Made by a program: the position numbers and the translations under genes. A stretch of DNA of 64,000 nucleotides, from the NCBI GenBank assembly GCA_017642885.1, contig JAEPOM010000013.1, positions 1 through 64,000 of the forward strand, in the 5' to 3' direction. Position 1 is the stretch's first letter. Each line of letters starts with the position of its first letter. This document shows, piece after piece, positions 38,436-58,363 of the stretch. A model generated the notes under the pieces. That model saw only the letters and a list, made by a program, of their open reading frames with translations, ran no database searches and had not been told where the DNA came from. Origin of the DNA: Henriciella sp. (lineage in GTDB: Bacteria; Pseudomonadota; Alphaproteobacteria; Caulobacterales; Hyphomonadaceae).

Positions 38436-38451
38436 AAAAGATATATCTTTT
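38436..38451. promoter_or_regulatory. Operator A (GATATATC family), leuC-like gene
   Basis: Perfect 16-bp palindrome AAAAGATATATCTTTT, 16 bp before the TTG start of the leuC-like gene and just before its AAGGAGG. Member of the repeated operator family of this region. Confidence 0.8.
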
Positions 38452-38467
38452 GCTGAAGGAGGCCGCT

Positions 38468-39859
38468 TTGGCGCAAACACTTTTCGACAAGCTCTGGGAG
38501 CGGCATCGCGTTTGTGATGCAGGCGACGGCTACGATCTGATTGCGATCGATCGATTGCTGTTGCACGAGCGAACCGGCGGGGTTGCGCTGAAATCATTGC
38601 AGGAAAGTGGGTACAAGGTTCGTGATCCTTCCCGGGTCTTCGCGATCATGGATCACATTGTCTCCTTCCGCGCCGGGCGGGGGCGAAACGATGCACGGAG
38701 CCCGGGTGGGGAAACCTTCATTACTGAAACCCGGTCCATGGCGCAGGCGGCGGGAATTCACCTGATCGATACAGACGATCCAAACCAGGGCATTGTGCAT
38801 GTTGTGGCGCCAGAGCAGGGGATTGCTTTGCCGGGTCTCTCTTTGGTTTGCCCTGACAGTCACACTTGCAGTCTCGGTGCCCTGGGCGCGCTTGCTTGGG
38901 GAATTGGCTCAAGTGAGGCGGAGCATGCGATGGTGACCGGTGTTTTGCGCATGCAGAAGCCAAAGCAGATGCGCATCCAGATTGACGGGGCTTTGCCCGT
39001 TGGAACGAGCGCGAAAGACGTAGCGCTATACCTCATCGCTCGCCATGGAGCCGGCGGAGGGCAACGCTGTGCGATCGAGTTCTGCGGGAGCGCGGTGGAA
39101 GCGCTGGACGTCGAAGCGCGCCTGACGCTGTGCAACATGGCGGTGGAGTTTGCCGCGTTCACGGCGGTGATTGCGCCGGATCGGAAGATTCTGGACTATC
39201 TTTCTGGGCGTCCCTTTGCGCCGAACGATAAGACCGGCATCCCAGCGGAATGGAGGGATCTTAAAACGGACTCGGACGCAGCCTTTGCCTACGAGATTGT
39301 ATTGAACGCGGCGGACATCCAGCCTCAGATGAGTTGGGGAACCAGTCCTGAAGAAAGTGCTCCGCTCGGGACTGAAATTCCAACAGACGCGCGATCCCAG
39401 GCGTTGGATTATATGGGGCTCGAACCCGGCCAGGTTCTCAATAATCTTCAAATCGACGGTGCCTTTATCGGCTCCTGCACGAATGGTCGCCTGTCGGACC
39501 TTCAGGCTGCGGCAAAGGTCCTTGAAGGTCGCCGCGTGGCGGATGGCGTGCGCGCGGTTTGCGTGCCTGGATCTCAAAATGTGCGCGCGGAGGCCGAAAA
39601 ACTTGGTATCGACAGGGTCTTCAAACAGGCGGGATTCGAATGGGGGGAGCCCGGCTGCGCGATGTGTTTCTATGCCGGTGGTGAGACGTTTGCACCCGGA
39701 GCCCGGGTCGTCTCCTCGACCAACCGGAACTTCGAAGGCCGCCAAGGACCAGGCGTGCGGACCCATTTGACCAGTCCGGCCATCGTTGCGGCTTGCGCGG
39801 TTGCCGGCAAAATCTGCGCGCCTGCTGATTTGCCGGTGCCCCAAAAGGAACCCGTCTGA
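38468..39859 (+). CDS. LeuC-like aconitase-family hydratase, large subunit
   Basis: 463 residues, length and sequence of 3-isopropylmalate dehydratase large subunits (QTLFDKLWERHRV, CPDSHTCSLGALGALAWGIGSSEAEHAM). The 4Fe-4S ligands are in GSCTNGRLSDL and GCAMCFYAG. Start is TTG at 38468, five bases after AAGGAGG; a TTG at 38450 precedes that ribosome site and is rejected. No leuA or leuB is near; the gene has operator A and neighbours a CoA-transferase and an HMG-CoA-lyase homologue. I therefore suspect a catabolic hydratase for citraconate, mesaconate or a methylmalate rather than leucine synthesis. Confidence 0.85.
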   Translation: MAQTLFDKLWERHRVCDAGDGYDLIAIDRLLLHERTGGVALKSLQESGYKVRDPSRVFAIMDHIVSFRAGRGRNDARSPGGETFITETRSMAQAAGIHLIDTDDPNQGIVHVVAPEQGIALPGLSLVCPDSHTCSLGALGALAWGIGSSEAEHAMVTGVLRMQKPKQMRIQIDGALPVGTSAKDVALYLIARHGAGGGQRCAIEFCGSAVEALDVEARLTLCNMAVEFAAFTAVIAPDRKILDYLSGRPFAPNDKTGIPAEWRDLKTDSDAAFAYEIVLNAADIQPQMSWGTSPEESAPLGTEIPTDARSQALDYMGLEPGQVLNNLQIDGAFIGSCTNGRLSDLQAAAKVLEGRRVADGVRAVCVPGSQNVRAEAEKLGIDRVFKQAGFEWGEPGCAMCFYAGGETFAPGARVVSSTNRNFEGRQGPGVRTHLTSPAIVAACAVAGKICAPADLPVPQKEPV

Positions 39860-40479
39860 TGCCGCGGCCTCTAACAGTTCATAACGGGCTCGCTGCGGCG
39901 ATCATGCGGGACAATATCGACACCGATCAAATCATCCCGTCTCGAGAAATGAAGGCGGTGAGCCGCGATGGATTGAGCGACGGTCTCTTCGCGGGCTGGC
40001 GATATACTGAGCCGGGAGGGCGCGAGCCGACGTCTGACTTCATCCTCAATCGACCAGAGCAAGCGGATACGAGTATTCTGATCTCTGGCGAGAACTTTGG
40101 CTGCGGGTCATCGCGCGAGCATGCGGCCTGGGCGCTGGCGGAGTATGGAATTCGCGTGATCATCGCCAAGAGTTTCGGTGAGATTTTTCACGGAAACTGC
40201 TTGCGCAATGGGATCCTGCCAATCTCTTTGCCGCCGGAAGAGGTGGATAAACTCGCCGCTATTGACGGGGCCGTCATATCCGTGGACCTGCCAGAGCAAA
40301 GCGTTGAGTGTCGGCAATTGCCCGGCTGGAACGCTACATTCGAAATTGGCGACTATCCAAAGCGCCTGTTAAGCGAAGGGTTGGAACCGATCGCATTGAC
40401 CTTGACGGACAAAGCCAAGATCGAACGATTCTTCGAACGCGATTCCGAACGCAGACCCTGGCTTTATTCCGCAGCTTGA
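39859..40479 (+). CDS. LeuD-like aconitase-family hydratase, small subunit
   Basis: 206 residues, swivel domain of the isopropylmalate isomerase type: NIDTDQIIPSREMK, FGCGSSREHAAWAL and FGEIFHGNCLRNGILPI. It forms the active heterodimer with the preceding subunit. Its ATG overlaps the preceding TGA by one base (TGATG). The 3' end overlaps the convergent CoA-transferase gene by 16 bp. Same functional caveat as the large subunit: family membership is sure, substrate is not. Confidence 0.87.
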   Translation: MPRPLTVHNGLAAAIMRDNIDTDQIIPSREMKAVSRDGLSDGLFAGWRYTEPGGREPTSDFILNRPEQADTSILISGENFGCGSSREHAAWALAEYGIRVIIAKSFGEIFHGNCLRNGILPISLPPEEVDKLAAIDGAVISVDLPEQSVECRQLPGWNATFEIGDYPKRLLSEGLEPIALTLTDKAKIERFFERDSERRPWLYSAA

Positions 40480-41678
40480 GGGGTTTTGTGGGGCGCCGTA
40501 TCTACAAGCCCGCGCTCGATCAGGTCCGAGATTTCACTTTCGGATAAGCCGATTGATTTCAAGACCGCCACTGAGTGCTCGCCGATTTCAGGTGGATTGA
40601 GCGTGAGGCCCGGGCGGTTGCCATCGATCGCAATAGGCATCGCCGGAAGCGCGATTTCGCCGCCGTCTGGAATGGTCATGTCGAGCAAACCACCGCTCTC
40701 GGTCAGGTGCTCGTCAGTGAACAGGTCTTCCGGTTTCTGGATCGGCGCAAACGGCAAGCCGGTCGTCTCCAGCTTGGCCATGAGTTCATCCTTCGAAAAC
40801 GTCGCGAACAACTCCCGCAGGGGAGGAATGATTTCGTCGCGGCGCGCCACGCGTTCATTATTGGCGGCGAGGGTTTCGTCCTTAGCCCAATCGGTCAGGG
40901 AAAACGCTTCGCAGAATGCGCGCCATTGGGTGTCGGAGACGACGCCAACAAAGACTTTCTCATCATCTTTCACGTCAAATACGTCATAGACTGCCCATGC
41001 CGAAATACGCGTTGGCATCGGTGCGGCTGGTGTGCCGGTGACAGCATACTGCGCCATGTGCTGGCCGACGAGGAAGACGGTCGTCTCGTAGAGCGACGCA
41101 CTGACATGGCGTCCTTTGCCTGATCGGGTGCGGTCCTGCAGCGCGGCAAGTACTGCAATGGCTCCAAACATACCGCCGGTAACGTCAATCACACTGCTGC
41201 CCGCGCGCAGCGGACGCCCGGGAGGGCCAGTCATATAGGCGAGACCACCCATCATTTGGGCCACCTCATCAAGCGCTGTTCGGTGCGAATAGGGGCCGTC
41301 GAGAAATCCTTTTTCCGAGCAATAGATGAGTTTCGGGTTCCGGGAGGAAAGGGCCTCATATCCGAAGCCCAGCTTTTCGAGCGCGCCGGGCCGGAAATTC
41401 TCGATGAAAATGTCTGCCTCGTCGATCAGCTTCAGCGCGAGCTGTTTGCCTTCTTCGGACTTGAGGTCGATCGACAGGCTTTTCTTGTTTCGATTGTACA
41501 TGGAGAAATAGCCGGCGCCCGATCCTCGCAAACGGCGTGTCTTGTCGCCGCCCACTGGCTCGACCTTGATCACGTCTGCACCGAGGTCCGCGAGCACGAG
41601 TCCGGCCGCAGGCCCCATCACCATATGTGTGAATTCAACGACCTTGATTCCAGACAGGAGGCCTGTTTCAGTGCTCAT
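40464..41678 (-). CDS. CaiB/BaiF (class III) CoA-transferase
   Basis: 404 residues. Class III CoA-transferase: VVEFTHMVMGPAAGLVLADLGADVIKVEPVGGD at the start, NRNKKSLSIDLKSEEGK, and the catalytic Asp in ALDEVAQMMGGLAYMTGPPG. It moves CoA between carboxylic acids. The ATG at 41678 is preferred to 41693 because GAGAGGA lies just before it. It is divergent from the HMG-CoA-lyase-like gene, with two operator copies between them, which points to activation of a hydroxy-dicarboxylate that the lyase then cleaves. Confidence 0.9.
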   Translation of the reverse strand: MSTETGLLSGIKVVEFTHMVMGPAAGLVLADLGADVIKVEPVGGDKTRRLRGSGAGYFSMYNRNKKSLSIDLKSEEGKQLALKLIDEADIFIENFRPGALEKLGFGYEALSSRNPKLIYCSEKGFLDGPYSHRTALDEVAQMMGGLAYMTGPPGRPLRAGSSVIDVTGGMFGAIAVLAALQDRTRSGKGRHVSASLYETTVFLVGQHMAQYAVTGTPAAPMPTRISAWAVYDVFDVKDDEKVFVGVVSDTQWRAFCEAFSLTDWAKDETLAANNERVARRDEIIPPLRELFATFSKDELMAKLETTGLPFAPIQKPEDLFTDEHLTESGGLLDMTIPDGGEIALPAMPIAIDGNRPGLTLNPPEIGEHSVAVLKSIGLSESEISDLIERGLVDTAPHKTPQAAE

Positions 41679-41732
41679 ACGATCCTCTCCCATTGGACTG
41701 TAACGCTAAAAAACGCTGTTCCGCACATCTTT

Positions 41733-41748
41733 AATAGATATATCAATT
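41733..41748. promoter_or_regulatory. Operator B1 (GATATATC family)
   Basis: AATAGATATATCAATT in the space between the CoA-transferase and lyase genes; core GATATATC at 41737-41744. First of two copies 18 bp apart, 55 bp before the CoA-transferase start. Confidence 0.7.
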
Positions 41749-41750
41749 GC

Positions 41751-41766
41751 ATTAGATATATCATTT
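41751..41766. promoter_or_regulatory. Operator B2 (GATATATC family)
   Basis: ATTAGATATATCATTT, core at 41755-41762, followed by GG as in operator C. It ends 45 bp before the HMG-CoA-lyase-like start. Confidence 0.75.
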
Positions 41767-41811
41767 GGCAATCGGGTCACGCCGTTCGGATCATTAAATG
41801 AGGCAGAAATC

Positions 41812-42762
41812 ATGACCACAAGTAACGTTTTGATCAGTGAAGTCGGTCCGCGTGACGGTCTCCAGAACTGCGATGGGATTATGCCAACCGAAGACAAGAA
41901 GCGCTGGATTTCGGCGCTCGCCGCTGCGGGGGTCAAAGAGATCGAGGTGGGCTCCTTTGTCTCACCCAAGCTGCTTCCTCAAATGGCGGATACCGGCGAA
42001 ATCGTTCGCCACGCCGTTCAAATTCCGGGCCTTGAAGTCGCTGTTCTGGTGCCGAACCTGAAAGGCGCGCAGCTCGCGATAGAGGCTGGGGCGCACAAGC
42101 TTACATTGCCGCTATCCGTCAGCGAAACGCACTCTTTGCGCAATATCCGTCGCACCCATGATCAGGTGATCGATGAGGCGAAAGCCATCGCAAGTCTGAT
42201 CGCAGACCAGCCTGAAGATAAGCGACCGCACTTCGAAGGGTCCTTGTCGACTGCTTTTGGCTGCACTCTGGAGGGCCCCATTGATGAGCAGGTCATTCTA
42301 AAATCTGCTGAGCGCCTGATGGCTGCCGGGTGTGACGAGGTCGGACTGTCCGACACAACAGGATACGGCGACCCAGCCTCCATGCGTCACCTGATTCGAG
42401 CCGTGCGCGGAGTAGTCGGCGATGAAAATCTGACCGGCGTTCACCTGCACAATACGCGGGGGCTTGGTCTCGCGAATATCATGGCCGCTTACGAAGAGGG
42501 CATCACCACTTTTGATAGTTCACTCGGCGGACTTGGCGGCTGTCCGACGGCTCCCGGCGCAAGCGGCAATGTCGTTACAGAAGACCTGGTCTTCATGTTT
42601 GAATCCATGGGCGTGGATACAGGGATTGATCTAGAGGCCCTGATGGCGACACGCGATATCGTTTCGGCCGCGCTTCCGGGCGAGGAGCTTTATGGGTTTA
42701 CGCCGCGCGCCGGATTGCCGCTTGGCTATAAAGGTGCACCGGTGCCCGCAGCTGCGGAATAA
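41812..42762 (+). CDS. HMG-CoA-lyase-like enzyme
   Basis: 316 residues, DRE-TIM metallolyase. Starts ISEVGPRDGLQNCDGIMPTEDK, the Arg-Asp pair of the family, then GLSDTTGYGDP, the metal ligands VHLHNTRGLGLANIMAAYEEGITTFDSS, and the Cys loop GLGGCPTAPGASGNVVTEDLVFMFESMG. It cleaves 3-hydroxy-3-methyl-type acyl-CoAs to acetyl-CoA and a keto acid. True HMG-CoA lyase of leucine breakdown is possible, but without liu genes nearby and next to a CoA-transferase and LeuCD-like hydratase, citramalyl-CoA or a similar compound is a good alternative. GAGGCAGAA precedes the ATG. Confidence 0.88.
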   Translation: MTTSNVLISEVGPRDGLQNCDGIMPTEDKKRWISALAAAGVKEIEVGSFVSPKLLPQMADTGEIVRHAVQIPGLEVAVLVPNLKGAQLAIEAGAHKLTLPLSVSETHSLRNIRRTHDQVIDEAKAIASLIADQPEDKRPHFEGSLSTAFGCTLEGPIDEQVILKSAERLMAAGCDEVGLSDTTGYGDPASMRHLIRAVRGVVGDENLTGVHLHNTRGLGLANIMAAYEEGITTFDSSLGGLGGCPTAPGASGNVVTEDLVFMFESMGVDTGIDLEALMATRDIVSAALPGEELYGFTPRAGLPLGYKGAPVPAAAE

Positions 42763-42798
42763 CGGGGACCTACTGAGCCAGTCAGGGGAGGTGAAGGC

Positions 42799-44247
42799 TT
42801 GCAGAATTTTCCAGCACTGATCACGCTGCTGATCTACTCAGCCATCCTGTTCGGGGTAGGGCTGTGGGCCGCGCAGCGTGCCAAGTCTCAAGAAGACTTC
42901 CTGCTGGGCGGGCGCAATCTGGGTCCGTGGGTGGCCGGGCTCGCTTATGCGGCCTCAAGCTCGAGTGCGTGGGTCTTGCTTGGCTTCTCCGGCTTTGTAT
43001 TTGCGGCCGGGCCATCAGCTTTGTGGATGGTGCCGGGTATAATCGCAGGATATGCGGCTGTCTGGCTCTGGGCTGGCGGCGTGCTTCAATCCGCCAGCCG
43101 CGATGAAGGGCAATTGACCCTCACCGAATTCATGACCCAGCACGCGCATCCTGGATCAGCAAGGCTCATTCGGATCGTCGCGTCGATCCTGATCGCGATC
43201 TGTTTCTCGTTCTACGTTGCAGGCCAGTTCCAAGGAGCTGGAACGGCGATCAATGACCTGTTCGAGACAGGCTTTGTGCCCGGCGTTGCCATCGGGGCGT
43301 TGATCATTCTGGCTTATGTCTTCCTGGGAGGATTCCTCGCGGTCTCGCTGACCGACACCATTCAGGGATTGCTGATGGCTTTTGTTGCGGTCTTGTTGCC
43401 GGCCTTGGCGTTCTTCGAAGCAGGGGGGCTGTCCGGGCTCTCACAAGCCATGACCGAAGCGCCGGAAGCATATGGCAGCGTTTTTGGAGCGCGCGCGGGC
43501 TGGGCGGCAGCCGGGTTTGTTCTCGGCCTGACAGCGACGGGATTTGGCGCGCTTGGCCAGCCCCACCTCGTCGCGTGGATCATGGCAACAAGGGATACCA
43601 GCGCGCGTGTTAAAGGCGCGATTGTGGCTATGAGCTGGGCGGCCTTGGTCTTCGCAGGAATGGCAGTGCTGGGCCTGTCGGGCCGTGCAATCCTTGGCGG
43701 CGACGCGGCGCCGGAAAGTGTGTTCTTCACGCTCGCAGAAGATCTGCTGCCGCCAATCTTTGCAGGCATTGTCGCGGCCGCAACCTTGTCAGCGATCATG
43801 TCGACTGTGGACAGTCAATTGCTGGTCGCGGGTGGTGCGGTGTCTCACGATCTCGGTCTGGGACGCGCGTTTGGCGGACGAGAGGTCTTGGTATCTAGGC
43901 TCGCAATAGTCGCGGTCTGTATTGCAGCGGTGCTGCTCACTTTGTTCGCGCCATCAAGTATCTTCAAGCGGATTCTGTTCGCATGGGTCGCCCTTGGCGC
44001 AGCGTTCGGGCCAATCGTGGTGGCGCGAACGCTGGGGTTCAAACCGCGGGGACGAACCGTGCTGGCGGGAATGGTGACCGGGTTTGGCCTCGCAGTGGCA
44101 TATGAAGTCGGCTGGATTGGTGCGGGTCCCGGCGGTATCTGGACAACGATTGCGCCATGGCTCGGCGCGTTTGCAGCGATGGGTTTAGCCGGGGTGACAA
44201 GAAAAACTCGCGCGGCGAGCGAGTTAAGGGTTGGCGAGAGCAAATAA
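42799..44247 (+). CDS. Sodium:solute symporter (PutP-like)
   Basis: 482 residues, SSS family of the sodium/proline branch, about 13 helices: SQEDFLLGGRNLGPWVAGLAYAASSSSAWVLLGFSG, VFLGGFLAVSLTDTIQGLLM, LSAIMSTVDSQLLVAGGAVSHD. Start is TTG at 42799, six bases after GGGGAGGTG; no ATG is suitably placed. It follows the lyase gene by 36 bp and is likely in its operon, so it may import the acid that the pathway degrades. Confidence 0.88.
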   Translation: MQNFPALITLLIYSAILFGVGLWAAQRAKSQEDFLLGGRNLGPWVAGLAYAASSSSAWVLLGFSGFVFAAGPSALWMVPGIIAGYAAVWLWAGGVLQSASRDEGQLTLTEFMTQHAHPGSARLIRIVASILIAICFSFYVAGQFQGAGTAINDLFETGFVPGVAIGALIILAYVFLGGFLAVSLTDTIQGLLMAFVAVLLPALAFFEAGGLSGLSQAMTEAPEAYGSVFGARAGWAAAGFVLGLTATGFGALGQPHLVAWIMATRDTSARVKGAIVAMSWAALVFAGMAVLGLSGRAILGGDAAPESVFFTLAEDLLPPIFAGIVAAATLSAIMSTVDSQLLVAGGAVSHDLGLGRAFGGREVLVSRLAIVAVCIAAVLLTLFAPSSIFKRILFAWVALGAAFGPIVVARTLGFKPRGRTVLAGMVTGFGLAVAYEVGWIGAGPGGIWTTIAPWLGAFAAMGLAGVTRKTRAASELRVGESK

Positions 44248-44258
44248 CCGTGCCACTT

Positions 44259-44274
44259 AAATGATATATCATTT
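44259..44274. promoter_or_regulatory. Operator C (GATATATC family)
   Basis: Perfect 16-bp palindrome AAATGATATATCATTT, 12 bp before the DUF1838 start and touching its GGAGGT ribosome site. Confidence 0.8.
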
Positions 44275-44286
44275 GGAGGTGGACCT

Positions 44287-45207
44287 ATGAAACTCATTTC
44301 AAAAATCGCAGCAATTGGGGCATCGGTCGCCGCTTTGTCGGCGTGCGCAACGCTGAGCCAGGCACAAGAAGGCGCACGGCTTGATCCAACAGACGCTGCG
44401 GACTCACTCACGATTATGCGCAAAGTGATGTGCTCAACCGTGGACGACCAACCCGAGGTCTATTGGTGGCATGGCATCGCGCTGACCCGAAAGCAGGGTG
44501 AGAAGGACGTCCACTTGTTCGATGTTGAAGGCATGAATATTCGGGCCTGCTCGACGCTCGAAGATGAGACTCTCGGCACGGGTCTGCATCTCGTTTCGCG
44601 CGAGATACTGCTCTACAAGGACAAGGATACAGGTGAAGTGCTCTCAACCTGGGACAATCCGTGGACCGGCGAGACGGTTGATGTGCTCCACGTTGCCAAT
44701 GACCCCGTAAACTTCAAAATGTATGAAACCAATCGTGACGGTTCACCGTTGCAATGGGGCGGCGAGATCGGCGAAGATGGTAGCTGGTGGATGCGCAGCA
44801 CTGTGCCGCTTTGGTATCCAAACCCTCTGGGTGGTGAATTCCAGAAAGAGATTGGCGGGACCTATCACGCGACTGAGATGTTCAATTTCTTTGGACGGAC
44901 AGATGACTTGCTGGATCCCAGCGAAGATTCTGCGAAGATTACTGTGGGCTGGGCACGTATGGCGGACTGGCTACCGTGGATGAACATGAATGGCCGAGAA
45001 GGCATGCTGTATATGCACACTGCCGGATACAAACTGGAGAATTACGACCAGCTATCCGATACGATGAAGGCAGAAATCGCGACTCATTACCCGGAATATA
45101 CAAGCCCGCCACCTTCCGGTGATCCGCGCAAGAACATGACCAGCTGGAAGTATTATAAAGGGATCACGGACGGTTCGATCGCTACGCCAGACCGCACGAG
45201 CGAGTAG
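44287..45207 (+). CDS. DUF1838 family exported protein
   Basis: 306 residues. Signal peptide with a possible lipobox (LSAC near residues 17-20) and an Ala-Gln-Ala region, then a DUF1838 domain: DAADSLTIMRKVMCSTVDDQPEVYWWHGIALTRKQGEKDVHLFDVEGMN ... STWDNPWTGETVDVLHVANDPVN. The family is often found in catabolic loci with TonB receptors and has no proven activity. GGAGGT precedes the ATG, and operator C touches it. A bidirectional terminator follows at 45231. Confidence 0.82.
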   Translation: MKLISKIAAIGASVAALSACATLSQAQEGARLDPTDAADSLTIMRKVMCSTVDDQPEVYWWHGIALTRKQGEKDVHLFDVEGMNIRACSTLEDETLGTGLHLVSREILLYKDKDTGEVLSTWDNPWTGETVDVLHVANDPVNFKMYETNRDGSPLQWGGEIGEDGSWWMRSTVPLWYPNPLGGEFQKEIGGTYHATEMFNFFGRTDDLLDPSEDSAKITVGWARMADWLPWMNMNGREGMLYMHTAGYKLENYDQLSDTMKAEIATHYPEYTSPPPSGDPRKNMTSWKYYKGITDGSIATPDRTSE

Positions 45208-45230
45208 CTCCATCCAGTGTTTCAAAAGCA

Positions 45231-45259
45231 AAAGCCGGGCCCGAAAGCCCGGCTTTTTT
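45231..45259. terminator. Bidirectional terminator
   Basis: AAAGCCGGGC / GCCCGGCTTT stem with a six-base loop and T run on the plus strand, A run on the left giving T on the minus strand. It separates the convergent DUF1838 and outer membrane protein genes. Confidence 0.9.
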
Positions 45260-45270
45260 GTTGGAGCGCT

Positions 45271-47452: not shown

Positions 47453-47468
47453 AAAAGATATATCATTT
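47453..47468. promoter_or_regulatory. Operator D (GATATATC family)
   Basis: AAAAGATATATCATTT, core 47457-47464, followed by GC. It ends 47 bp before the TonB receptor start and about 100 bp from the divergent lipocalin-like gene. Confidence 0.78.
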
Positions 47469-47515: not shown

Positions 47516-49981
47516 ATGTCGAAATCGATTCTGATGGTGGGCGCAGCTGCGCTGGCCATGACCGCCTATAACGCCCCTGCGCTTGCACAGGATTTAGAAG
47601 ATGAGCCGGAAGCTCGTCAGGATGTGATCACGGTGACCGCCCGGAAAACCGAGGAGAGCGTTCAGGAAACACCCGTCGCCGTCTCTGTCGTATCCGCGGA
47701 TACAATCGAGAATCTGTCTTTGGTGGATCTGTCAGATATTTCCAAACTGACGGCCGGGTTGAGCTTCGACAACGAGTTTGGACGGGATTCGAACCGCCCG
47801 GTTATTCGAGGGCAGGCGAATATTCTGGGGGCTTCCGGAGTATCTTACTTCATCGACGGGGTGCGCATATCTGGCGCAATCACTGATTACGATCTCAACG
47901 ATGTTGAGCGCATCGAAGTTGTCAAAGGGCCGCAAAGCGCGCTCTACGGACGCAATACATATTCTGGGGCGATCAACATTATAACGCGCACGCCGCAGGA
48001 AGAATTCTCAGCGCGCGCCAGTATCGACCTGGCTGATCACGGGCAACAGGATCTCAGCCTTGGCTTTGGCGGTGCAATCAACGATTTCGTCGCGTTCGGC
48101 GTGAACGCACGTTTCTACAATTATGATGGTGAGTTTACCAATCAGTTTGATGGTCAACTCATTGGCGAAGAAACGACGCAGTCATTCTCGAGTGTCTTGT
48201 ATCTGACCCCTAATGACGATTGGGATATCCGCCTGCGCGGTTATTACTCCAACAGCGATGATGGGCAGCCGGCTCTGTTCGCCACGACTGCGGCCGAGAA
48301 CAATTGCTTCTTTGACAATGGGTCATTGTATGGTGGGCAAGGGCGTTACTTCTGCGGCACTGTTCAGCCGCGCGATGTCAACTCGGACTATCGTCTTCAA
48401 GTCGGCCCAAATGCAGGAACCGAAATTGAGAACACCCAGCTCAGTTTGTCGGTAAATGGCGACCTGAATGACAATTGGTCGATCACATCAATCACGGGCC
48501 TCAATTCTCGAGACGTGAGCCAGCAAACCGATGGCGACTATTCGCCAACGCGTTTTCAGGCGACAAATTTCGTGCCGGGTGGATTCCCGATTAATATTAT
48601 CAGCTTTTCGCCATTCTTGGCCCTGTACGGCTACCCGACGAGCATCGCCGACTTCACGTTCGCCAATGCGTCGGAAGAGGAAGAATTGTCGCAAGAGGTG
48701 CGCCTGAACTACCAAACCGATCGCTTCAGAGCTCTGGTGGGCGCCTACTATCTCAACGGAGAAGAGAAGAGCCGCGACGCGCGTTCATTGCCCGCCGGGG
48801 CTCAAGCAACTGCTAGTGCCAATTTCGCCGCCGAGCTTGCATCACAGCAGACGATTTGCGGCTTCAATCCGACCTGTATTGGCATCGTTCCTTTGGGATC
48901 GCCCATCATCTCAGTTCCATCTGGGTCGAGCACTTTCGACATCGAAAACAAAGCAGTTTTTGGACTTGTTTCCTATGACCTGACAGATGCCGTATCCGTA
49001 ACGCTCGAAGGGCGGTACGCTGAAGAAGAGATTGAACGGTCGGCTCCGGGTGATCCTGTTCAAACCGCGAGTTTCGACAACTTCGCACCGCGTGCCACAA
49101 TCGACTGGCAGGCAACGCCAAACAATCTGCTCTATGCGGTATACGCAGAAGGACAGAAGCCGGGTGGATTTAACTCCAACCAAGCCCAGCTCGCAGGTCT
49201 CGGAACGTTTGAAGAAGAAGAAGTGCAATCCATTGAGATTGGATCCAAGAACGTTCTTCTCGGCGGGCAACTCACGGCCAACTTCGCTGGCTTCTTCAAC
49301 GAAGTCCAAGGCTATCAACTCACCCAGAACGTCCGTGTAAACGACACCAACACGACGTCGGCAACGGTCAGCGCAGGTGATGCCGAAATTCTCGGTGTTG
49401 AAGCCGAGTTCCAGTTCATTCCTGATGGTTTTGAGGGCCTTACGGCAACATTGAACTATGCCTGGACAGATACTGAGTTTACCGCCGGTCGTGATCAGAA
49501 TGAAGGCGTGTTGCTCGATACTTTGGACGACGGTCTGGTCAACGGATCCGTCGGGTGTGAGATTTTCGCCGATCCAACGGATACAACATCAGAATGTCTC
49601 CAGAATGCATTCGGCTCTATTGTCGGACGCGAAATTCCGCGAACCGCTGAGCATCAATTGTTCTTCGATCTGGACTATCGCGGACCGACCGGACACGGCG
49701 ACTGGGATTTCTTCGCCGGTGCGAATGTCTCTTACGAGTCGAGCAAGTTCTCGCAGGTCCACAATCAGGCGGAAACGGGCGACGCCACCCTGGTCGGAGC
49801 TCGCATCGGGGTTACAAATGGCCAGCACACGCTTCGCCTCTGGGGACGCAATCTAACCGACGAAGACTCCTCTCCATTGGTGCTGCGCTATGCCGACGGC
49901 GGTGATAGCTTCAAGCGAAACTTCGTGGGTACGCTTCGCCGTGGTTCACAAATCGGGGTAACGCTCAGCACGGAATTCTAA
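47516..49981 (+). CDS. TonB-dependent receptor
   Basis: 821 residues. Signal peptide ending ALAQ, a TonB-box-like segment (DVITVTARK), the plug domain (VQETPVAVSVVSADTIENL ... RGQANILGASGVSYFIDGVRISGAI ... VERIEVVKGPQSALYGRNTYSGAINIITRTP) and a 22-strand barrel that ends in Phe (GVTLSTEF). It takes a large or scarce substrate across the outer membrane using TonB energy. The class is the one common in catabolic loci of sphingomonads and hyphomonads. GGGAGA precedes the ATG at 47516. Operator D lies upstream. Confidence 0.95.
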   Translation: MSKSILMVGAAALAMTAYNAPALAQDLEDEPEARQDVITVTARKTEESVQETPVAVSVVSADTIENLSLVDLSDISKLTAGLSFDNEFGRDSNRPVIRGQANILGASGVSYFIDGVRISGAITDYDLNDVERIEVVKGPQSALYGRNTYSGAINIITRTPQEEFSARASIDLADHGQQDLSLGFGGAINDFVAFGVNARFYNYDGEFTNQFDGQLIGEETTQSFSSVLYLTPNDDWDIRLRGYYSNSDDGQPALFATTAAENNCFFDNGSLYGGQGRYFCGTVQPRDVNSDYRLQVGPNAGTEIENTQLSLSVNGDLNDNWSITSITGLNSRDVSQQTDGDYSPTRFQATNFVPGGFPINIISFSPFLALYGYPTSIADFTFANASEEEELSQEVRLNYQTDRFRALVGAYYLNGEEKSRDARSLPAGAQATASANFAAELASQQTICGFNPTCIGIVPLGSPIISVPSGSSTFDIENKAVFGLVSYDLTDAVSVTLEGRYAEEEIERSAPGDPVQTASFDNFAPRATIDWQATPNNLLYAVYAEGQKPGGFNSNQAQLAGLGTFEEEEVQSIEIGSKNVLLGGQLTANFAGFFNEVQGYQLTQNVRVNDTNTTSATVSAGDAEILGVEAEFQFIPDGFEGLTATLNYAWTDTEFTAGRDQNEGVLLDTLDDGLVNGSVGCEIFADPTDTTSECLQNAFGSIVGREIPRTAEHQLFFDLDYRGPTGHGDWDFFAGANVSYESSKFSQVHNQAETGDATLVGARIGVTNGQHTLRLWGRNLTDEDSSPLVLRYADGGDSFKRNFVGTLRRGSQIGVTLSTEF

Positions 49982-51558: not shown

Positions 51559-52626
51559 ATGGCATTTTCGAGTTTCGAACCGGTTCAATTCTGCGAACAA
51601 ACGCGCCTGAACTCCCTTGCCGGCATGATTGGGCGAACTCCTCTGCTTGCGGTTCACGTGCGGTGGAAGGGCGAACAGCGGATCATTTATGCCAAGGCCG
51701 AACACTACAATCTAACCGGTAGTATCAAGGATCGGATGGCGCTCAACATTCTGAAATGTGGCTATGCGACGGGTGCCTTGAAGCCGGGCGATATGATTGT
51801 TGAAGCTACCAGCGGCAATGCGGGGATCGCGATGGCGGCGCTCGGACGCGCGCTGCGCCATCCCGTGCGGATCTATATGCCGGACTGGATGAGCGAAGAG
51901 CGCAAGTGCCTGCTGCGGTCTCTGGGCGCGGAGCTCTGCCTCATCAGTCGGGAAGAGGGTGGGTTTCTCGGCGCGATTGCCGCGACTGAAGCGCTGGCGG
52001 AAACGCGCGACGACGTCTTCCTGCCGCGCCAGTTCGCGAATTGTGAGAATTGCAATGCCCATGAAGCGACCACCGGTCCAGAGATCCTGAGCCAGTTGGC
52101 TTCGATCGGCCGAGTTCCAGACGGCTTCGTGGCCGGTGTCGGAACGGGTGGGACCGTGATGGGGGTCGGGCGTGCCCTGACTGACGCGCATCCAGGCGTA
52201 AAAATTCATCCCCTGGAGCCAGCCGAGTCGCCGACGCTTTCGACCGGGTACAAAACCGGAGCCCACCGCATTCAAGGGGTTTCGGACGATTTTATTCCAG
52301 CGATCGTAAAGCTGGATGAGATTGATGAAGTTGTGGCTGTGAGTGATGGCGACGCCATCATCATGGCTCAAAAGCTTGCTTCCGAGCTTGGTCTGGCTGT
52401 CGGCATATCCTCCGGTGCCAATCTGATTGGCGCTTTGGCCGTCCAGAATCAACTCGGAAGCAAGTCATGCGTCGCGACGATTTTCTGTGACGACAATAAG
52501 AAATACCTTTCAACCGACCTCGCGCGGGAAGAGCCGGTGAAGCCCTGTTACATCGCGCCTGAGGTTGAATTGATCGGGTTTGAAACGATCCCCTACGTGG
52601 CCGCCGCGGCTTCAATGATCGCGTAA
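51559..52626 (+). CDS. PLP-dependent cysteine-synthase-family enzyme
   Basis: 355 residues, fold type II PLP enzyme. PLP Lys in [15 protein letters not shown] near residue 57, substrate loop [13 protein letters not shown] and phosphate loop [15 protein letters not shown]. The end ([21 protein letters not shown]) matches a cysteine-synthase-like subgroup that is longer than CysK. Divergent from a CyuR-like regulator, it may degrade cysteine rather than make it. GATAGGAGG precedes the ATG. The last 34 bp overlap the convergent amine oxidase gene. Confidence 0.85.
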
Positions 52627-53990
52627 GCGGCCCGCTCACCCGACTCCATCGCGCCCTCCATCCCCGTATGCAGGTATGATGTGTGCTCGCCCGCAAAATG
52701 CAGATTGCCAGCTGGGGCAACGACCCGTTCCGCCCAGGGCTGAATCTGGCCGGGAGCCCAATGCATATACGCACCGCCGCTTAGTGGCTGGGTTTCATCC
52801 CAGCGGGTCACTTTGTGCGCCCGCGCTTTGATACCGCGAGTCTCAGAGAGCGTTCGTTCGGCAAGCTGCATCCAGTCTTCATCGCTGGCGCTTATTCGGG
52901 TGCCGATACCATTGATCCAGCAGGTCAGTGCTACCGTCTCACCAGATTTGTTCCGAACCGGGAAGACGCGCTCGATTGGCGTATCCGACCACATCATAAG
53001 GGGCAGCCCATCGGAGGGACCGTCCTCCAGCTCCAGATAGACTTGCTGGATTTGCGTGTACGCCATGGTGTCGACAATCGGTTGGATTTGCGGCGTGCCG
53101 GGCATCAGAGCCAGTGGCAAGTGACGCAGCACGGGGAAAGGGAGCGTGCAGACGCAATACGGAGCGCGATAGTTGCGGTCTCCAGCGCGGACGGTCACGC
53201 CAGACCCCGATGCATCGATCCCGGTCACGGCTGTGCCATTCAAAACAGCGCTATCGCCAAGGCTGGCTGCCATGGCTTCCGGCAAGCGCTGTGAGCCACC
53301 TTCGACCTCTTCAGATGGTCCACTGGAGGCGTCCAGCTGGAACAGCGTCATGCTGCGCCACACGTTCAGCATGGAGTAGCTGCTGAGCTGGTTCGCATTC
53401 AGCGCAATATCACACAGGGCCCGACTTTGATCATCGAAACCCTGTTGGCTCAGAAACTCAGCCGCGCTGATGTCGAACTCGGGACTGACTTCGCGCCAGG
53501 CATATTGGTCTTTTAAGGGGTTTGCCGCGGCCGCCGCCATGAACAGGGCGACGTCCGGTGTGGCGCGCTTGAATGCGTCTGGGAAGGGATTATCAGCGGA
53601 GGTTGCCCATTCGCCTGCATCAAACACTTGCCCGTTCAAGACCATAGCTTTGTCTCTCGATCCACCTGGTTTCGGCGGGACAATTTTCAGACCCAAATCG
53701 ATCGCGGTGGAGCGCACCCTGGCATAGGATTGGCCAACCTGCTGTCCACCGGCTTCCGGTCGCCCCGGGACATCGTCGAGCGTCCACATTCGCCCGCCAA
53801 TCCGGTCAGAGGCTTCCAGGACGAGAACCTTCATTCCATCCGCTTGAAGCATACGAGCGGCGTGCAGACCTGCCAGTCCGGCACCGAGGATCAAGACGTC
53901 AGCATCATACGTCTCGACAATTGCAGGGGCGCAAGCCGCGGTGGCGGCGAGACCACTCATTGCCACAAAGTGCCGTCTTGTCAGTTGCAT
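52593..53990 (-). CDS. Tat-exported flavin amine oxidase
   Basis: 465 residues. Twin-arginine signal ([23 protein letters not shown]), then the FAD motif [36 protein letters not shown], and the C-terminal FAD-binding [26 protein letters not shown] typical of monoamine oxidases. It should work in the periplasm on an amine or related compound. The ATG at 53990 is used because it begins the Tat signal and follows a GAGG. Operator E lies 28 bp upstream, and an MFS gene is divergent. Confidence 0.88.
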
Positions 53991-54017
53991 ACTCGTTTTT
54001 TCCTCGACGTCCGGATC

Positions 54018-54033
54018 AAATGATATACCAATA
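54018..54033. promoter_or_regulatory. Operator E (degenerate GATATATC family)
   Basis: On the minus strand the site reads TATTGGTATATCATTT followed by G; the core has one mismatch (GGTATATC). It lies between the amine oxidase and MFS genes, oriented like the other sites toward the amine oxidase. Confidence 0.55.
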
Positions 54034-54086
54034 GACATCAGGAAACGAAAAGCGCCAAGCGCGAATTGAGCATTCTGGAGGAATTC

Positions 54087-55595
54087 ATGGAGCAAGACGG
54101 CGAATTCAAACGCGGCTGGCCGGTTTTGGCCGCTGCTGCTGTCGGTGTAGGGCTCGGCCTGTCGCCGCTGCCCTTCTACACGATTGGCGTCATGATCCCG
54201 CCGTTGCTCGGTGAGTTCGGGCCGATGGGGTGGTCAGCTGGCGACATTTTGAACGCGCTTGCCATCTATACGTTCGGAGCCTTTTTTGCCTCACCCTTCA
54301 TCGGTGTTCTAGCGGAAAAGTTCGGTGCGCGGCGCGTGGCGCTTGTCTCGATCGTGACCTTTGGCCTGGCTATGATGGCACTGGCGCTCAATACCGGATC
54401 GAAGACACTCTACATTGCGTTATGGCTGGTGTTGGCTTTTGCTGGGGCAGGCACCCTACCAATCACGTTCACGCGGCCTGTCGCCAACTGGTTCAAGGAT
54501 AATCGCGGTATCGCGCTCGGCATCGCGTTGATCGCGACGGGGGTATTCGGCGCCTTGGCGAAGTTCGGATCGCAATTCATCGTCTCCAATGAAGCGTTCC
54601 ATTTCGTCGGCGGGTCAGGTTGGCGCTCGGCCTATGTCTTGCTCGGTCTCTTGCCCATCGTGATCGCGCTGCCGCTCTCATATCTCAGCCTCCGAGACGT
54701 CAATGATGAGCCCGCGAGCGAGGCGTCGATTGTAAACCTGAAGTACCCGGTGCTCGGCATCGCGCTGCTGGGAACGATTGGTCTGGTCTGGATGGTGATC
54801 AATCAAGTCGTCCCACTCATGAACCAAAACGGATTGCGTCTGGAATACATTATGGCGTTCGGGTTCTGTGGCCTGGTCTTTGTGCCGGTGATCTTGATGC
54901 TGGTTCTGGACATCAAGAAAGCCCCGCCAGAAGTTCAGGAAGGGCAGGCTGTGGAGCTCCCCGGTTTGACGCTGCCTCAGGCTCTCAAAGAATGGCGTTT
55001 CTGGGTTCTCGCGATCTCGTTTGTGCCGATTTCTTATGCAATCGGCGCGATTATTCCAAACATTGAGCGCGTTTTGCGAGCAAACGAGTTTGGTATGGAC
55101 GAAGCCGTCGGCCTGGCCACGCTCACTGGCCTCGCCGTGCTCGGTGGACGCATTATTGGCGGTTATCTGATTGATCGCTTCTGGGCTCCTGGCGTCGCAT
55201 TCTTTTTCCTGGCTTCGCCCGCCATCGCGCTGTGGATGCTGGCGCAGCCGGGGGTCACACCGACAACCGCAACGATCGCGATCTTGATGATCGGGTTCGG
55301 AGCCGGGGTCGAATATGACTTCATGGCGTATATGGTCTCGAAATATTTCGGGATGAAATCCTATTCGGCAATCTATGGCGCGATCTATGGTTTCTTTGCG
55401 CTCGGAGCGGGCTTGGGTCCGAGCATCATGACCGATATTGCCGATGGTCGCGGCGTTCATTTCCTGGGCATAAATCTCGGCATTCTACCGGGGCAGGATT
55501 GGAACTTCACGCTGACCAGCGCGGCGATCATCCTGTTTGTGTCGACGATCCCGCTGCTCTTCCTTGGAAAGTACAAGTACACAGACGGTCACTAG
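54087..55595 (+). CDS. MFS transporter
   Basis: 502 residues, major facilitator with 12 helices and an elongated central loop. PFIGVLAEKFGARRVALVS near residues 72-90 is the loop 2-3 motif. Resemblance is to oxalate/formate or monocarboxylate-type MFS proteins (GAGVEYDFMAYMVSKYFGMKSYSAIYGAIYGFFALGAGLGP is typical). CTGGAGG lies before the ATG at 54087; a TTG at 54066 is rejected. Divergent from the amine oxidase across operator E, so it probably imports the product or substrate. Confidence 0.88.
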   Translation: MEQDGEFKRGWPVLAAAAVGVGLGLSPLPFYTIGVMIPPLLGEFGPMGWSAGDILNALAIYTFGAFFASPFIGVLAEKFGARRVALVSIVTFGLAMMALALNTGSKTLYIALWLVLAFAGAGTLPITFTRPVANWFKDNRGIALGIALIATGVFGALAKFGSQFIVSNEAFHFVGGSGWRSAYVLLGLLPIVIALPLSYLSLRDVNDEPASEASIVNLKYPVLGIALLGTIGLVWMVINQVVPLMNQNGLRLEYIMAFGFCGLVFVPVILMLVLDIKKAPPEVQEGQAVELPGLTLPQALKEWRFWVLAISFVPISYAIGAIIPNIERVLRANEFGMDEAVGLATLTGLAVLGGRIIGGYLIDRFWAPGVAFFFLASPAIALWMLAQPGVTPTTATIAILMIGFGAGVEYDFMAYMVSKYFGMKSYSAIYGAIYGFFALGAGLGPSIMTDIADGRGVHFLGINLGILPGQDWNFTLTSAAIILFVSTIPLLFLGKYKYTDGH

Positions 55596-56407
55596 GCGGA
55601 CACGGACGCGTCTAGTTTGGTGAGCACCAGATCAGCGGTGTCTTTCGGAAAGGCATCCATGAAGCCATAGCCCCATTGCGGGCACTCGATCACTTCGCCG
55701 TTTCGAAGAAGCGGGATTGCTCGCCGGGTACACTCGGTCAGGTCATCGACCGGGTTCAGCAGGGTTATTCGGTGCGGTAATTTGGTCAGCGCCTCGTCAA
55801 ACGGCTTGCCCCAGGCAAACGCCGCGACGTGGCCCCATTCATACGCCTCTCCACCCATCATGTTCATATACATGGAGCGGTCCATCATCTCGAGCGTCTG
55901 ACCGGGCCCTTGGCGCTCAGTCACCCGTTCCCAGCTCACTTTGAACCGCGTGTGCTCGGCGTCGAGTGGGATAGGCGTGAACATGTCTTTGAACATTTCG
56001 CGCTCTTCGTCTGTGAGAATAGCCGCTGAGACCATCGCGATGGCGTGCACACGATCAGCCCGGGTGAGGGCCATCTGCGCAGCGACTTTTGCACCTGTGT
56101 GATTGCCGAACAGATCTACGGTCTTCAGGCCAAGACCATCTGCCAGGTGCCACATCTCTTCGGCATACATCGGGATGGTCGTTTCCTCTTCAGACGGAGC
56201 AGCATCCGACATGCCATAGCCTGGATAGTCGGGCGCGATCACGGTTCGATCACGGCTGGCTTCACGCATGAAGATATCGAACTCGAGCCCGCATTTCGGG
56301 CTTTGGTGAAGGCAGATGAGCGGCGGTTTTCCGGTCTCGTCTCGGGCCTCGGCTATCCGGTAATGGATCTGACCATGCGTGCCTTCGACGTAGCCTTTGC
56401 GCACCAT
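55592..56407 (-). CDS. Alpha/beta-hydrolase-fold protein lacking the usual nucleophile
   Basis: 271 residues with alpha/beta hydrolase landmarks: ICLHQSPKCG (oxyanion loop), VIAPDYPGYGMSD and an Asp in LLNPVDDLTE. At the nucleophile elbow, however, the sequence is LFGNHTGAKVA, with His where Ser, Asp or Cys is expected, and the C-terminal region (WGYGFMDAFP) lacks the catalytic His. So either a non-hydrolytic role or unusual chemistry. ATG at 56407 follows GGAG; its start overlaps the stop of the upstream reductase gene (TGATG). Last gene of the operon from 58305. Confidence 0.82.
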   Translation of the reverse strand: MVRKGYVEGTHGQIHYRIAEARDETGKPPLICLHQSPKCGLEFDIFMREASRDRTVIAPDYPGYGMSDAAPSEEETTIPMYAEEMWHLADGLGLKTVDLFGNHTGAKVAAQMALTRADRVHAIAMVSAAILTDEEREMFKDMFTPIPLDAEHTRFKVSWERVTERQGPGQTLEMMDRSMYMNMMGGEAYEWGHVAAFAWGKPFDEALTKLPHRITLLNPVDDLTECTRRAIPLLRNGEVIECPQWGYGFMDAFPKDTADLVLTKLDASVSA

Positions 56408-57420
56408 CACACTTGCTCCGGGGAGACAGTGACGACAGCTTTGCCCTTGTTCTGGCCATTCATCAGTCGCTCGAACAGGGCAGGCGCATTGCCCAGGCCG
56501 TCCGCGCGGTCTTCAGCAAATTTCAACTGACCGCTGGCGATCCAGGGCGCGGCTTCGGACACAAACTCGTCCCAGCGCGGATAGAAGTCGTAAACCACAA
56601 GCCCGAACAATTGTGCGCGTTTGCCAATGATGAGGCCCGCGTTCAAAGGGTGCTGGCTCTGCGTCTCTGTATGGTAGGCATCGACCAGGCCGCAGAGGAC
56701 CCCCCGCGCATAGGTGCGGGCGTGCGTCAGGGCGAGCATGGCCATATCTGCTGAGACATTCTCGAAGAAGACAGACAGGCCATCAGGTAGGGCTTCGGCG
56801 AGGCGATCGCGCCAACCGTCTGCTTTATAGTCGATACAAGCGTCGAAGCCGTAAGTATCCGTAACCAAAGAACATTTCTCTGGTCCACCAGCGATGCCGA
56901 CCACTCGGTCCGCCCCCTTTATACGGGCGATCTGGCCCACGGTCCCGCCGACTGGGCCGGCTGCGGCATCGACGAGCACGGTGTCGCCTTTGCCCACTTT
57001 CGCGAGCTGACTGATGCCTGACCAGGCCGTGAGACCTGGCATGCCCAGGACGCCCGCATGGGCGGCAAGCGGGGCCACGCTCGGATCGATCTTGCGGGCG
57101 TCCACCGCGGGGATCGCGATGAATTCCTGCCAGCCGCCTTCCATGACATGAACCCAGTCACCTTCGGTAAAATCGGCTGAGCGGCTTTCCATGACCTGGC
57201 CGATCACCGCGCCGGGAATAGCGCCTTGCATCGGGGTGGGTGCCGGTTCTCCCATATGCCGTCCGCGCAAACGAGACCCAACATATGGATCAAGCGAGAG
57301 ATGAACGACGCGTACCACCAGGCCGCCTTCAAGGCAGGTCGGTCGCTCGGCATCGATAATGGCGAAGTCACCAGCGACCGGTTTATGGTCGATCGCGTGT
57401 CTCAGAGTTCCAAGTTTCAT
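56407..57420 (-). CDS. NADP-dependent MDR oxidoreductase (CurA-like)
   Basis: 337 residues, zinc-free medium-chain reductase of the leukotriene B4 dehydrogenase/CurA type. Markers: VRVVHLSLDPYVGSRLRG at the start, GMPGLTAWSGISQLAKVGKGDTVLVDAAAGPVGGTVGQIAR with the Rossmann glycines, and FFENVSADM. These enzymes reduce alpha,beta-unsaturated ketones or aldehydes. Its start is 3 bp after the VOC stop and its stop overlaps the hydrolase start, so the three are one transcript under operator F. Confidence 0.9.
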   Translation of the reverse strand: MKLGTLRHAIDHKPVAGDFAIIDAERPTCLEGGLVVRVVHLSLDPYVGSRLRGRHMGEPAPTPMQGAIPGAVIGQVMESRSADFTEGDWVHVMEGGWQEFIAIPAVDARKIDPSVAPLAAHAGVLGMPGLTAWSGISQLAKVGKGDTVLVDAAAGPVGGTVGQIARIKGADRVVGIAGGPEKCSLVTDTYGFDACIDYKADGWRDRLAEALPDGLSVFFENVSADMAMLALTHARTYARGVLCGLVDAYHTETQSQHPLNAGLIIGKRAQLFGLVVYDFYPRWDEFVSEAAPWIASGQLKFAEDRADGLGNAPALFERLMNGQNKGKAVVTVSPEQV

Positions 57421-57423
57421 GCC

Positions 57424-58305
57424 TTATCCTTCAACCATTTCGATGAGTGTGCCGTCAGGATCCTGGAGGACGCCGACGCGCTTTCCTTTGTAGATGACAC
57501 CATCCCGAACACTGGGCGCCGTCAGCCACGGGCCGGGCAGGGAGTCGAACTCCGGATAGAAGAGTGTGCCGATCGCGCACCCAGGCACCAGCATGCCATC
57601 TTGCCGCGGTCGCTGAATGGCGGCGTCCGGATATTGGTCTAGTTCCAGAAAAACATCTTTGCCGTGAATCAGCGTGCAGATCCTGTGCAGCTCATCCAGA
57701 GGGGTCCCATAAGCCTTGGCGAGCATCGTGTACGGGATCTCCATTTCGCGCCCAAAGTCCAGACCGCATTTTTCCTGCATCCATGTTGCGGCGCGATCCA
57801 TGTTTGAGTTGCCCATGACCAGAATGAAAAGCTTGTCGATCACGCTACCTGCACGAGGCAGATTGTATTCCGGTAGGTCGTCATTGATTTGCGTGAGGTA
57901 GACGATTTCTTCGTCTGGGCCTTTGACCTGCATCGGGTGGATCGCGTCGAGACCTGGGATCTTGTTCGGTGGTCCGATAATCTCAAATGGGCTCTCCTGC
58001 ATTCGGGCATTCACAGCCATCACATCCTGGACGCAAATCTCGATCGCGTTCCAACCGTAGGACCGCAGGGCTTGGAAACCTTCGACAGGAGGCTGCTCGA
58101 TAAACCGCAAAAAGATGTCAGCCCCTGAGCTCGGCTGCATGACGGCGTAAGCGCAGCCCGAAGAGTTCGGTGTCTTCCAGCTCTCGGCCAACGCATCTCT
58201 GATCTCGCCGTGCTCAACGACGGAGTAGTCGAAGAACCGCGAGTAGAGATCGACACTGCGATCAAGGTCCGAGACCGTCACCGTGGCGGCGCGCAAAAGT
58301 TTCAT
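57424..58305 (-). CDS. Two-domain VOC family protein
   Basis: 293 residues with two VOC modules (about 1-130: LLRAATVTVSDLDRSVDLYSRFFDY; about 145-290, ending GKRVGVLQDPDGTLIEMVEG). The layout is that of extradiol dioxygenases and two-module glyoxalases, but I cannot verify a full metal triad, so ring cleavage is unproven. First gene of a tight operon with the MDR reductase and alpha/beta-fold protein, 43 bp from operator F. Confidence 0.82.
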   Translation of the reverse strand: MKLLRAATVTVSDLDRSVDLYSRFFDYSVVEHGEIRDALAESWKTPNSSGCAYAVMQPSSGADIFLRFIEQPPVEGFQALRSYGWNAIEICVQDVMAVNARMQESPFEIIGPPNKIPGLDAIHPMQVKGPDEEIVYLTQINDDLPEYNLPRAGSVIDKLFILVMGNSNMDRAATWMQEKCGLDFGREMEIPYTMLAKAYGTPLDELHRICTLIHGKDVFLELDQYPDAAIQRPRQDGMLVPGCAIGTLFYPEFDSLPGPWLTAPSVRDGVIYKGKRVGVLQDPDGTLIEMVEG

Positions 58306-58347
58306 GGCTCCAAACCCTTTGCAAAGCCCTCAAAAGGGCGGCATAAG

Positions 58348-58363
58348 AAAAGATATATCATTT
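58348..58363. promoter_or_regulatory. Operator F (GATATATC family)
   Basis: AAAAGATATATCATTT, core 58352-58359, followed by GTT. It lies between the divergent VOC operon (43 bp) and the DUF1330 gene (38 bp). Confidence 0.8.

Follow-up and report, generated by a model that had tools for sequence, protein, structure and literature searches.

Which regulator, if any, ties together the catabolic genes strewn over one stretch of a Henriciella sp. genome, and does a short palindrome repeated between these genes serve as its operator? The stretch, referred to here as the window, comprises the first 64 kb of contig JAEPOM010000013.1 (C4), one of the 71 contigs of a 3.66-Mb assembly (GCA_017642885.1; G000). 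An original prediction, made from the letters of the window, had proposed one shared operator for one catabolic regulon, with the regulator encoded elsewhere. Both the scan of the whole genome and the conservation of the sites upstream of orthologues supported this proposal, and we put a probability of roughly 0.8 on the palindrome being the operator of a single dimeric GntR/HutC-type regulator, here called GntR-A, encoded outside the window.

An A/T-armed palindrome recurs at promoters on five contigs

All six exact copies of the core GATATATC that had been reported in the window were found at their positions, against 0.43 expected, and none of 100 dinucleotide shuffles reached this number. 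Searching for AAATGATATATCATTT with up to three mismatches recovered exactly the seven sites proposed, the degenerate one included (0.19 expected; 0/100 shuffles reached seven). Measured to start codons picked by eye, the sites lie 16 bp from leuC, 45 and 63 bp (two sites) from the gene of an HMG-CoA-lyase-like protein (HMGL), 12 bp from a DUF1838 gene, 47 bp from a TonB-dependent receptor gene, 27 bp from an amine oxidase gene on the minus strand and 34 bp from a DUF1330 gene. In at least three of the window promoter regions they also face a divergent gene, encoding a class III CoA-transferase (54 bp), an MFS transporter (53 bp) or a VOC protein (42 bp).

The operator takes the form AAA(T/A)GATATATC(A/T)TTT. 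Of the sites described as perfect or near-perfect palindromes, the one at 44259 and the one at 38436, with AAAA/TTTT arms, are perfect, and the remaining ones are near-palindromes. The one-sided G that had been thought to point towards the regulated genes proved weak: in 81 rows oriented to the downstream gene, with one site entered twice, position +9 is G in 50% and position −9 is C in 40%. Since this amounts to a faint two-sided extension and not to an arrow, we dropped the polarity.

Across the genome the bare 8-mer was rejected as a signal because it is too common, occurring at 31 places versus 13 for the reversed control. By our own count 13 of the 31 are A/T-armed sites, and 16 of the other 18 lie inside open frames of at least 80 codons, a loose test that some armed sites pass likewise. 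Scattering through coding sequence, named beforehand as a result that would speak against the regulon, was half seen with the bare core. The armed 17-mer AAATGATATATCATTTG, at up to three mismatches, occurs at 15 distinct places, with none for the control. Seven of these places are in the window, five on contig C44 and one each on C22, C33 and C55; none is more than 57 bp away from the start chosen for a gene, and the C55 site overlaps its start by 2 bp. A looser motif, AAWWGRTATAYCWWTTG with two mismatches, was tried and rejected; it gained a weaker sixteenth site at C44:109068, plus a few chance-like places (control 3-4) that include C44:193766, inside an open frame. The regulon thus outgrows the 20 kb originally assigned to it, with about 15 promoter regions spread over five contigs.

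A GntR/HutC-type gene sits between two of the sites

The same genome scan revealed a site-flanked regulator gene outside the window, as had been anticipated. Four genes of G000 encode a GntR domain scoring over the Pfam cut-off, and the best-scoring one, GntR-A (C44:108139-108936), lies between the sites C44:108093 and C44:109068. Its product matches the N-terminal winged helix PF00392 (76.2 bits, cut-off 27, residues 22-85) and the C-terminal UTRA domain PF07702 (121.9 bits, cut-off 23.8, residues 108-247), and by these profiles GntR-A is a member of the GntR family, HutC/UTRA type. The equivalogs PhnF (TIGR02325; 128.1 bits, cut-off 156.8) and HutC (TIGR02018; 113.9 bits, cut-off 220) are among its best NCBIfam matches, but GntR-A falls under both cut-offs, and none of the targets scanned here was recognised as a histidine or phosphonate gene.

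GntR-A was matched in 25 of 105 genomes of the family (E 1e-30) and in 63 of 398 genomes of the order (E 1e-50; a sample drawn evenly from a larger group). Its closest named relatives are from Hyphomonas and Henriciella metagenome-assembled genomes (MAGs), and the named carriers, compiled from 16 loci that include a 29% Bifidobacterium match set aside, include Henriciella MAGs, Hyphomonas polymorpha, H. beringensis, H. atlantica, Hirschia maritima and a Parvularculaceae MAG. One locus with 77% regulator identity (CALGEF010000065.1, L070) is labelled uncultured Acidobacteria; it matches G071, a genome of the window's own family, and is probably a mislabelled bin.

Sites follow the regulator across related genomes

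The co-occurrence of regulator, operator and marker gene was assessed in the 105 family genomes by counting AAATGATATATCATTT at up to three mismatches, excess being that over the control. The 17 genomes encoding GntR-A with at least 65% identity carry 7-48 sites (median 16), and all 17 show an excess of at least seven. Where the identity is below 65% (eight genomes) the median is four sites, and such an excess is reached once (G032, control 16). In the 80 genomes with no GntR-A the median is two, and the excess is reached in two, G001 and G002. The difference between the 17 and the 80 genomes is significant (one-sided Mann-Whitney p 4e-11, kinship ignored). Carriage of GntR-A is patchy within genera. 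The HMGL marker (E 1e-60), found in 24 family genomes, accompanies GntR-A in 23; GntR-A occurs without HMGL in two genomes and HMGL without GntR-A in one. GntR-A proteins of 37-58% identity go with scattered near-sites only, a few of which lie beside the gene of the regulator or upstream of LeuC. As for G002, an 88% complete assembly with no GntR-A match, five one-mismatch sites, of its 10, stand beside regulon orthologues (GlcD, TonB, VOC/DUF1330, HapK, LeuC/IsoCh), so that the assembly may simply lack the part with the regulator. The largest count, 48 sites versus a control of 10, came from G033; this surplus partly reflects base composition, and possibly a larger regulon. The HMGL match of this genome (L114, G033:C2:295869-296798) shows one internal TAA.

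Conservation upstream of orthologues was present for HMGL, LeuC, MFS and others. Scored with a footprint matrix built from the 16 own sites, the DNA upstream of HMGL reached at least 24.8 in 15/15 genomes with GntR-A at 65% or more, and at most 6.5 in 8/8 genomes with a diverged or no GntR-A, compared with a maximum of 20.7 and a 99th percentile of 7.4 in 484 null stretches of the own genome, each 200 bp long. G036, which has no HMGL, and the upstream DNA of G003 are not part of this set, and a distant second HMGL-like gene in G087 (42%), which has no site, was left out of the 15-and-8 count. The operator is also found ahead of the LeuC orthologue in G041, G078, G002 and G003, and ahead of the MFS orthologue in G041, G078 and G087. 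In G047, among the eight, HMGL follows leuCD, and variant sites, two in number, are found ahead of leuC. In this genome, where GntR-A is 58% identical, two copies of the variant AAAAGATATAACATTT (L079:7145 and 7264) stand between leuC and the isochorismatase gene; operator and regulator have perhaps drifted together.

These results bear on whether the palindrome could be a shared promoter element or a chance A/T-rich sequence, given that its core looks like a −10 box and that the bare 8-mer exceeds its reversed control only about twofold. The armed motif is in excess by 15 to 0, the site is missing ahead of all eight HMGL orthologues whose GntR-A has diverged or been lost, dyad symmetry is no promoter feature, and in sites aligned to the downstream gene no conserved promoter box was found, no position outside −9..+9 reaching 0.35 bit. 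In our view the armed-motif scan, the HMGL footprint and the co-occurrence refute this explanation, whose probability we regard as negligible.

Gene clustering gave further support for GntR-A as the regulator. Of the 17 genomes with a close orthologue of gntR-A, 16 have at least one site at up to four mismatches next to the gene and 11 carry sites on either flank, G036 having none (a raw tally within 3-3.8 kb around the gene, made with no shuffle control). G041 and G087 hold most of the window and C44 regulon genes in one supercluster of about 40 kb that includes GntR-A: the G041 cluster (1083-1124 kb) contains 11 of its 16 sites and the G087 cluster (contig C28, 191-231 kb) 14 of 16. Amine oxidase and PALP genes were not found in the G041 and G087 stretches examined, and the TonB receptor there has only 34% identity. 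Of the distinct G/C-core sites in the loci used, 80/87 lie no more than 250 bp from the start of a regulon gene (median 30 bp), as do 72/75 of those at up to three mismatches, including all 15 own sites.

A second GntR protein, GntR-B (C44:96279-96989; L028:12280-12990, minus strand), could own the operator or share it with GntR-A. It belongs to the same C44 cluster, has a UTRA domain and is matched in 15/105 family genomes; in G041, a site lies between its gene and PrpD1. Its distribution does not follow that of the sites, however: G003, G036 and G087 have GntR-A together with sites (16, 7 and 16) and no GntR-B match, while G029, with GntR-B at 51% and GntR-A at only 38%, has only four sites. 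Moreover, two sites adjoin GntR-A in the own genome and none, at up to three mismatches, adjoins GntR-B. GntR-B was therefore judged unlikely to be the regulator of these sites, though it is possibly a sub-regulator.

The sites might also bind some other DNA-binding protein encoded elsewhere, with GntR-A merely one of its targets; the binding of GntR-A is a prediction, and an AraC-type gene (L037:4961-5908, plus strand) lies near the site-bearing TonB receptor on C33. Yet operator presence follows GntR-A identity across genomes, and no regulator was seen by eye among the unmatched frames of at least 90 residues in the G041 and G087 clusters, few of which were run through Pfam. We consider this explanation very improbable.

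Recognition residues and a proposed mechanism

The solved relatives of GntR-A include NagR/YvoA and DasR, which have the same two domains. In the NagR structures, as described in passages of the original report (PMC4333415), Arg38 reads G−5 and Arg48 reads G−4, with six bases between the half-sites. Aligned with NagR, GntR-A has Q49 at the Arg38 position and R59 at the Arg48 position, both invariant in the 11 GntR-A orthologues aligned. The 16 own sites share with the NagR operator the six-base spacing and G−4/C+4 (both at 1.00) and differ at −5, which is mostly T or A (6% G). By analogy with the NagR structures the recognition residues of GntR-A thus appear to fit the motif. None of the targets scanned here was recognised as an amino-sugar gene.

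Several observations nevertheless weigh against GntR-A as the reader of the operator. The uniformity of the sites is partly due to selection, because they were chosen by their likeness to a consensus, and the inner bases usual in the HutC subfamily, GTMTAKAC, are unmatched, GRTATAYC being found here; PMC4494728 gives NyGTMTAKACNy as the usual consensus, with named exceptions. The residue argument cannot separate GntR-A from GntR-B because GntR-B also has no Arg38 equivalent (by eye it has Met there and Arg at the Arg48 position, whereas the GntR protein on C70 has Arg at the Arg38 position), and the choice between the two rests on four genomes. The p-value is optimistic, since the genomes are related. 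G001, 97% complete and with no GntR-A, has 13 sites (excess 9), none of the four examined being near regulon genes; G036 has a GntR-A of 67% identity but seven sites, no HMGL and no site at gntR-A. In G062 and G078 the sites and regulon genes are spread over several places, and in G062 three of 12 well-matching sites are farther than 250 bp from any recognised start of a regulon gene. Finally autoregulation, although possible, is uncertain because the nearest upstream site is 131 bp from the gntR-A start and 17 bp from the divergent gene of a DUF1838 paralogue.

With GntR-A as the regulator, the system could work as follows. A dimer would read G−4 and C+4 by the R59 of each recognition helix, with the wings holding the A-tracts, and bound just before or at the transcription start it would block about 15 promoter regions. 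Repression is favoured over activation because of the position of the sites, some of which abut the Shine-Dalgarno sequence, and because of the habit of the family. A pathway intermediate may then bind the UTRA domain and release GntR-A, so that uptake through the outer membrane, oxidation in the periplasm, transport across the inner membrane and CoA-dependent breakdown would all be switched on at once, perhaps along with GntR-A. A comparable arrangement is outlined in passages on PheR of Sphingobium (PMC13273656), a repressor of the IclR type that controls how phenanthrene is taken up and catabolised: there too a single repressor joins a catabolic operon with TonB-dependent uptake, but its family and operator are different and, in those passages, its effect on the TonB gene was seen by transcriptomics.

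Genes of the regulon

Window operators were located by the motif scan. The first, AAAAGATATATCTTTT (38436..38451), precedes the genes of a LeuC-like dehydratase large subunit (38468..39859, +; PF00330, PRK12466 subfamily over its cut-off, TTG start by eye) and a LeuD-like small subunit (39859..40479, +; PF00694). A pair of operators 18 bp apart (41733..41748 and 41751..41766) occupies the single divergent promoter between the class III CoA-transferase (40464..41678, −; PF02515), whose start was picked by eye for its Shine-Dalgarno sequence in an open frame extending to 41693, and HMGL (41812..42762, +; PF00682, PRK05692 subfamily over its cut-off). At the same place G003 has a pair 16 bp apart and G041 one site only. 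HMGL is followed by a sodium:solute symporter (42799..44247, +; PF00474) and by the perfect 16-bp palindrome (44259..44274) before the DUF1838 gene (44287..45207, +; PF08894, lipoprotein-like N-terminus by eye). A DUF1838 paralogue (locus L029) likewise sits behind a site. No match to the DUF1838 protein was found among solved structures, and its predicted structure was too poor for comparison (mean predicted local distance difference test score, pLDDT, 42.4; predicted template modelling score, pTM, 0.33; from nine sequences). One paper turning up for DUF1838 is reportedly on aurantimycin biosynthesis.

Farther along, an operator (47453..47468) stands ahead of the TonB-dependent receptor (47516..49981, +; PF00593, PF07715). 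The degenerate operator AAATGATATACCAATA (54018..54033) lies between the flavin amine-oxidase family protein (52593..53990, −; PF01593, start at 53990 and Tat-like signal by eye), which among solved structures best matches monoamine and cyclohexylamine oxidases, and the MFS transporter (54087..55595, +; PF07690). Profile matches identify a VOC protein, a zinc-type dehydrogenase and an alpha/beta hydrolase at 55592..58305 (−), probably one operon, in an order kept in G041 and G078. The last operator (58348..58363) separates them from the divergent DUF1330 gene (58398..58691, +; PF07045, ATG 58398 by eye), which is followed by a 279-residue protein with no Pfam match (58693..59532, +) that adjoins DUF1330 in G041, G078 and G087 also.

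On four other contigs the sites stand before further genes, mostly catabolic, operon membership being assumed from gene order. The C22 site precedes a membrane protein with no Pfam match, the C33 site a TonB receptor and then an amidohydrolase, and the C55 site VOC, dehydrogenase, VOC and MFS genes. On C44, the site at 45655 precedes a VOC protein and a thiolase, and that at 88198 HapK-like, SDR, PuuE-like, CMD, CitE, MaoC, acyl-CoA dehydrogenase and two class III CoA-transferase genes. A second protein with no Pfam match, an FAD oxidase, an aldehyde dehydrogenase and an enoyl-CoA hydratase follow the site at 108093; the DUF1838 paralogue and, divergent and farther off, GntR-A belong to 109068; isochorismatase-family, two PuuE-like, DinB, CN-hydrolase and YCII proteins to 115324; and a third TonB receptor to 115877. 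A Parvularculaceae MAG differs in that a roughly 1000-codon open frame (L072:11457-14534) matches the FAD oxidase with no separate aldehyde dehydrogenase match before the enoyl-CoA hydratase, possibly a fusion.

The suggested substrates are cyclic imides and C4-dicarboxylates

Amide and imide hydrolysis is prominent among these genes, with three PuuE-like proteins, a CN-hydrolase and an isochorismatase-family protein that has N-carbamoylsarcosine amidohydrolases among its best solved matches; the G041 cluster contains a PF01425 amidase. PuuE1 scores 223.2 bits with TIGR03212, against a cut-off of 424.6, and passes that of PF01522, and the best solved chain for PuuE3 is PuuE allantoinase (E 5e-30). 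MaoC and CitE of the C44 operon have as their best models RipB (238.8 bits, cut-off 340) and RipC (225.9 bits, cut-off 375) of the itaconate RipABC system; since both fall under the curated equivalog cut-offs, they perhaps catalyse related reactions on another diacid. Together the RipB/RipC-, LeuCD- and HMGL-like proteins and the class III CoA-transferases suggest, as far as profile matches go, that substituted C4 diacids are hydrated, activated with CoA and cleaved at a C-C bond, and the suggested substrate class is cyclic imides and C4-dicarboxylates. In the fungal nicotinate route, as summarised in passages of PMC9304392, the PuuE-related cyclic imidase HxnM opens a cyclic imide and the amidase HxnN acts next. 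The regulon resembles that account in its three PuuE-like plus amidase-type proteins, but organism and later steps are different, and here C-C lyases and CoA-transferases would follow.

A more specific reading, which we hold to be unlikely, is that the regulon encodes all that is needed to take up and use a pyrrole or tetrapyrrole-like pigment, or some other compound that yields imides. Oxidation would give substituted maleimides, which PuuE-type imidases and amidases would convert to substituted maleates; a keto acid and an acyl-CoA would then arise by way of the LeuCD-like hydratase, the class III CoA-transferase and HMGL. A Rip-like arm would take itaconyl- or mesaconyl-like acids, and GntR-A would sense an intermediate diacid or imide. 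Both the maleimide chemistry and the sequence of these steps are putative, and the pyrrole or tetrapyrrole source is a guess.

Among the matches listed in open-access literature we found no description of this regulon or of a fitting pathway, and nothing on Henriciella with GntR; searching GATATATC with GntR returned only unrelated titles. This is a real regulon of a known kind, most probably a GntR/HutC regulon, larger than 20 kb and, by the searches made, itself undescribed. Three TonB receptors, transporters and some dozens of enzymes are thereby tied to one operator and one candidate regulator, a link that spans the Hyphomonadaceae and some related families and takes in function-orphans such as DUF1838, DUF1330, HapK-like and membrane proteins with no Pfam match. 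The orphan gene set becomes one testable pathway, for which the operator is a ready reporter and the effector of GntR-A would tell which class the substrate belongs to. A family 1 glycosidase with a signal-like N-terminus (L099:7011-8411, −), bordering the supercluster in G087, might hint at a glycosylated substrate.

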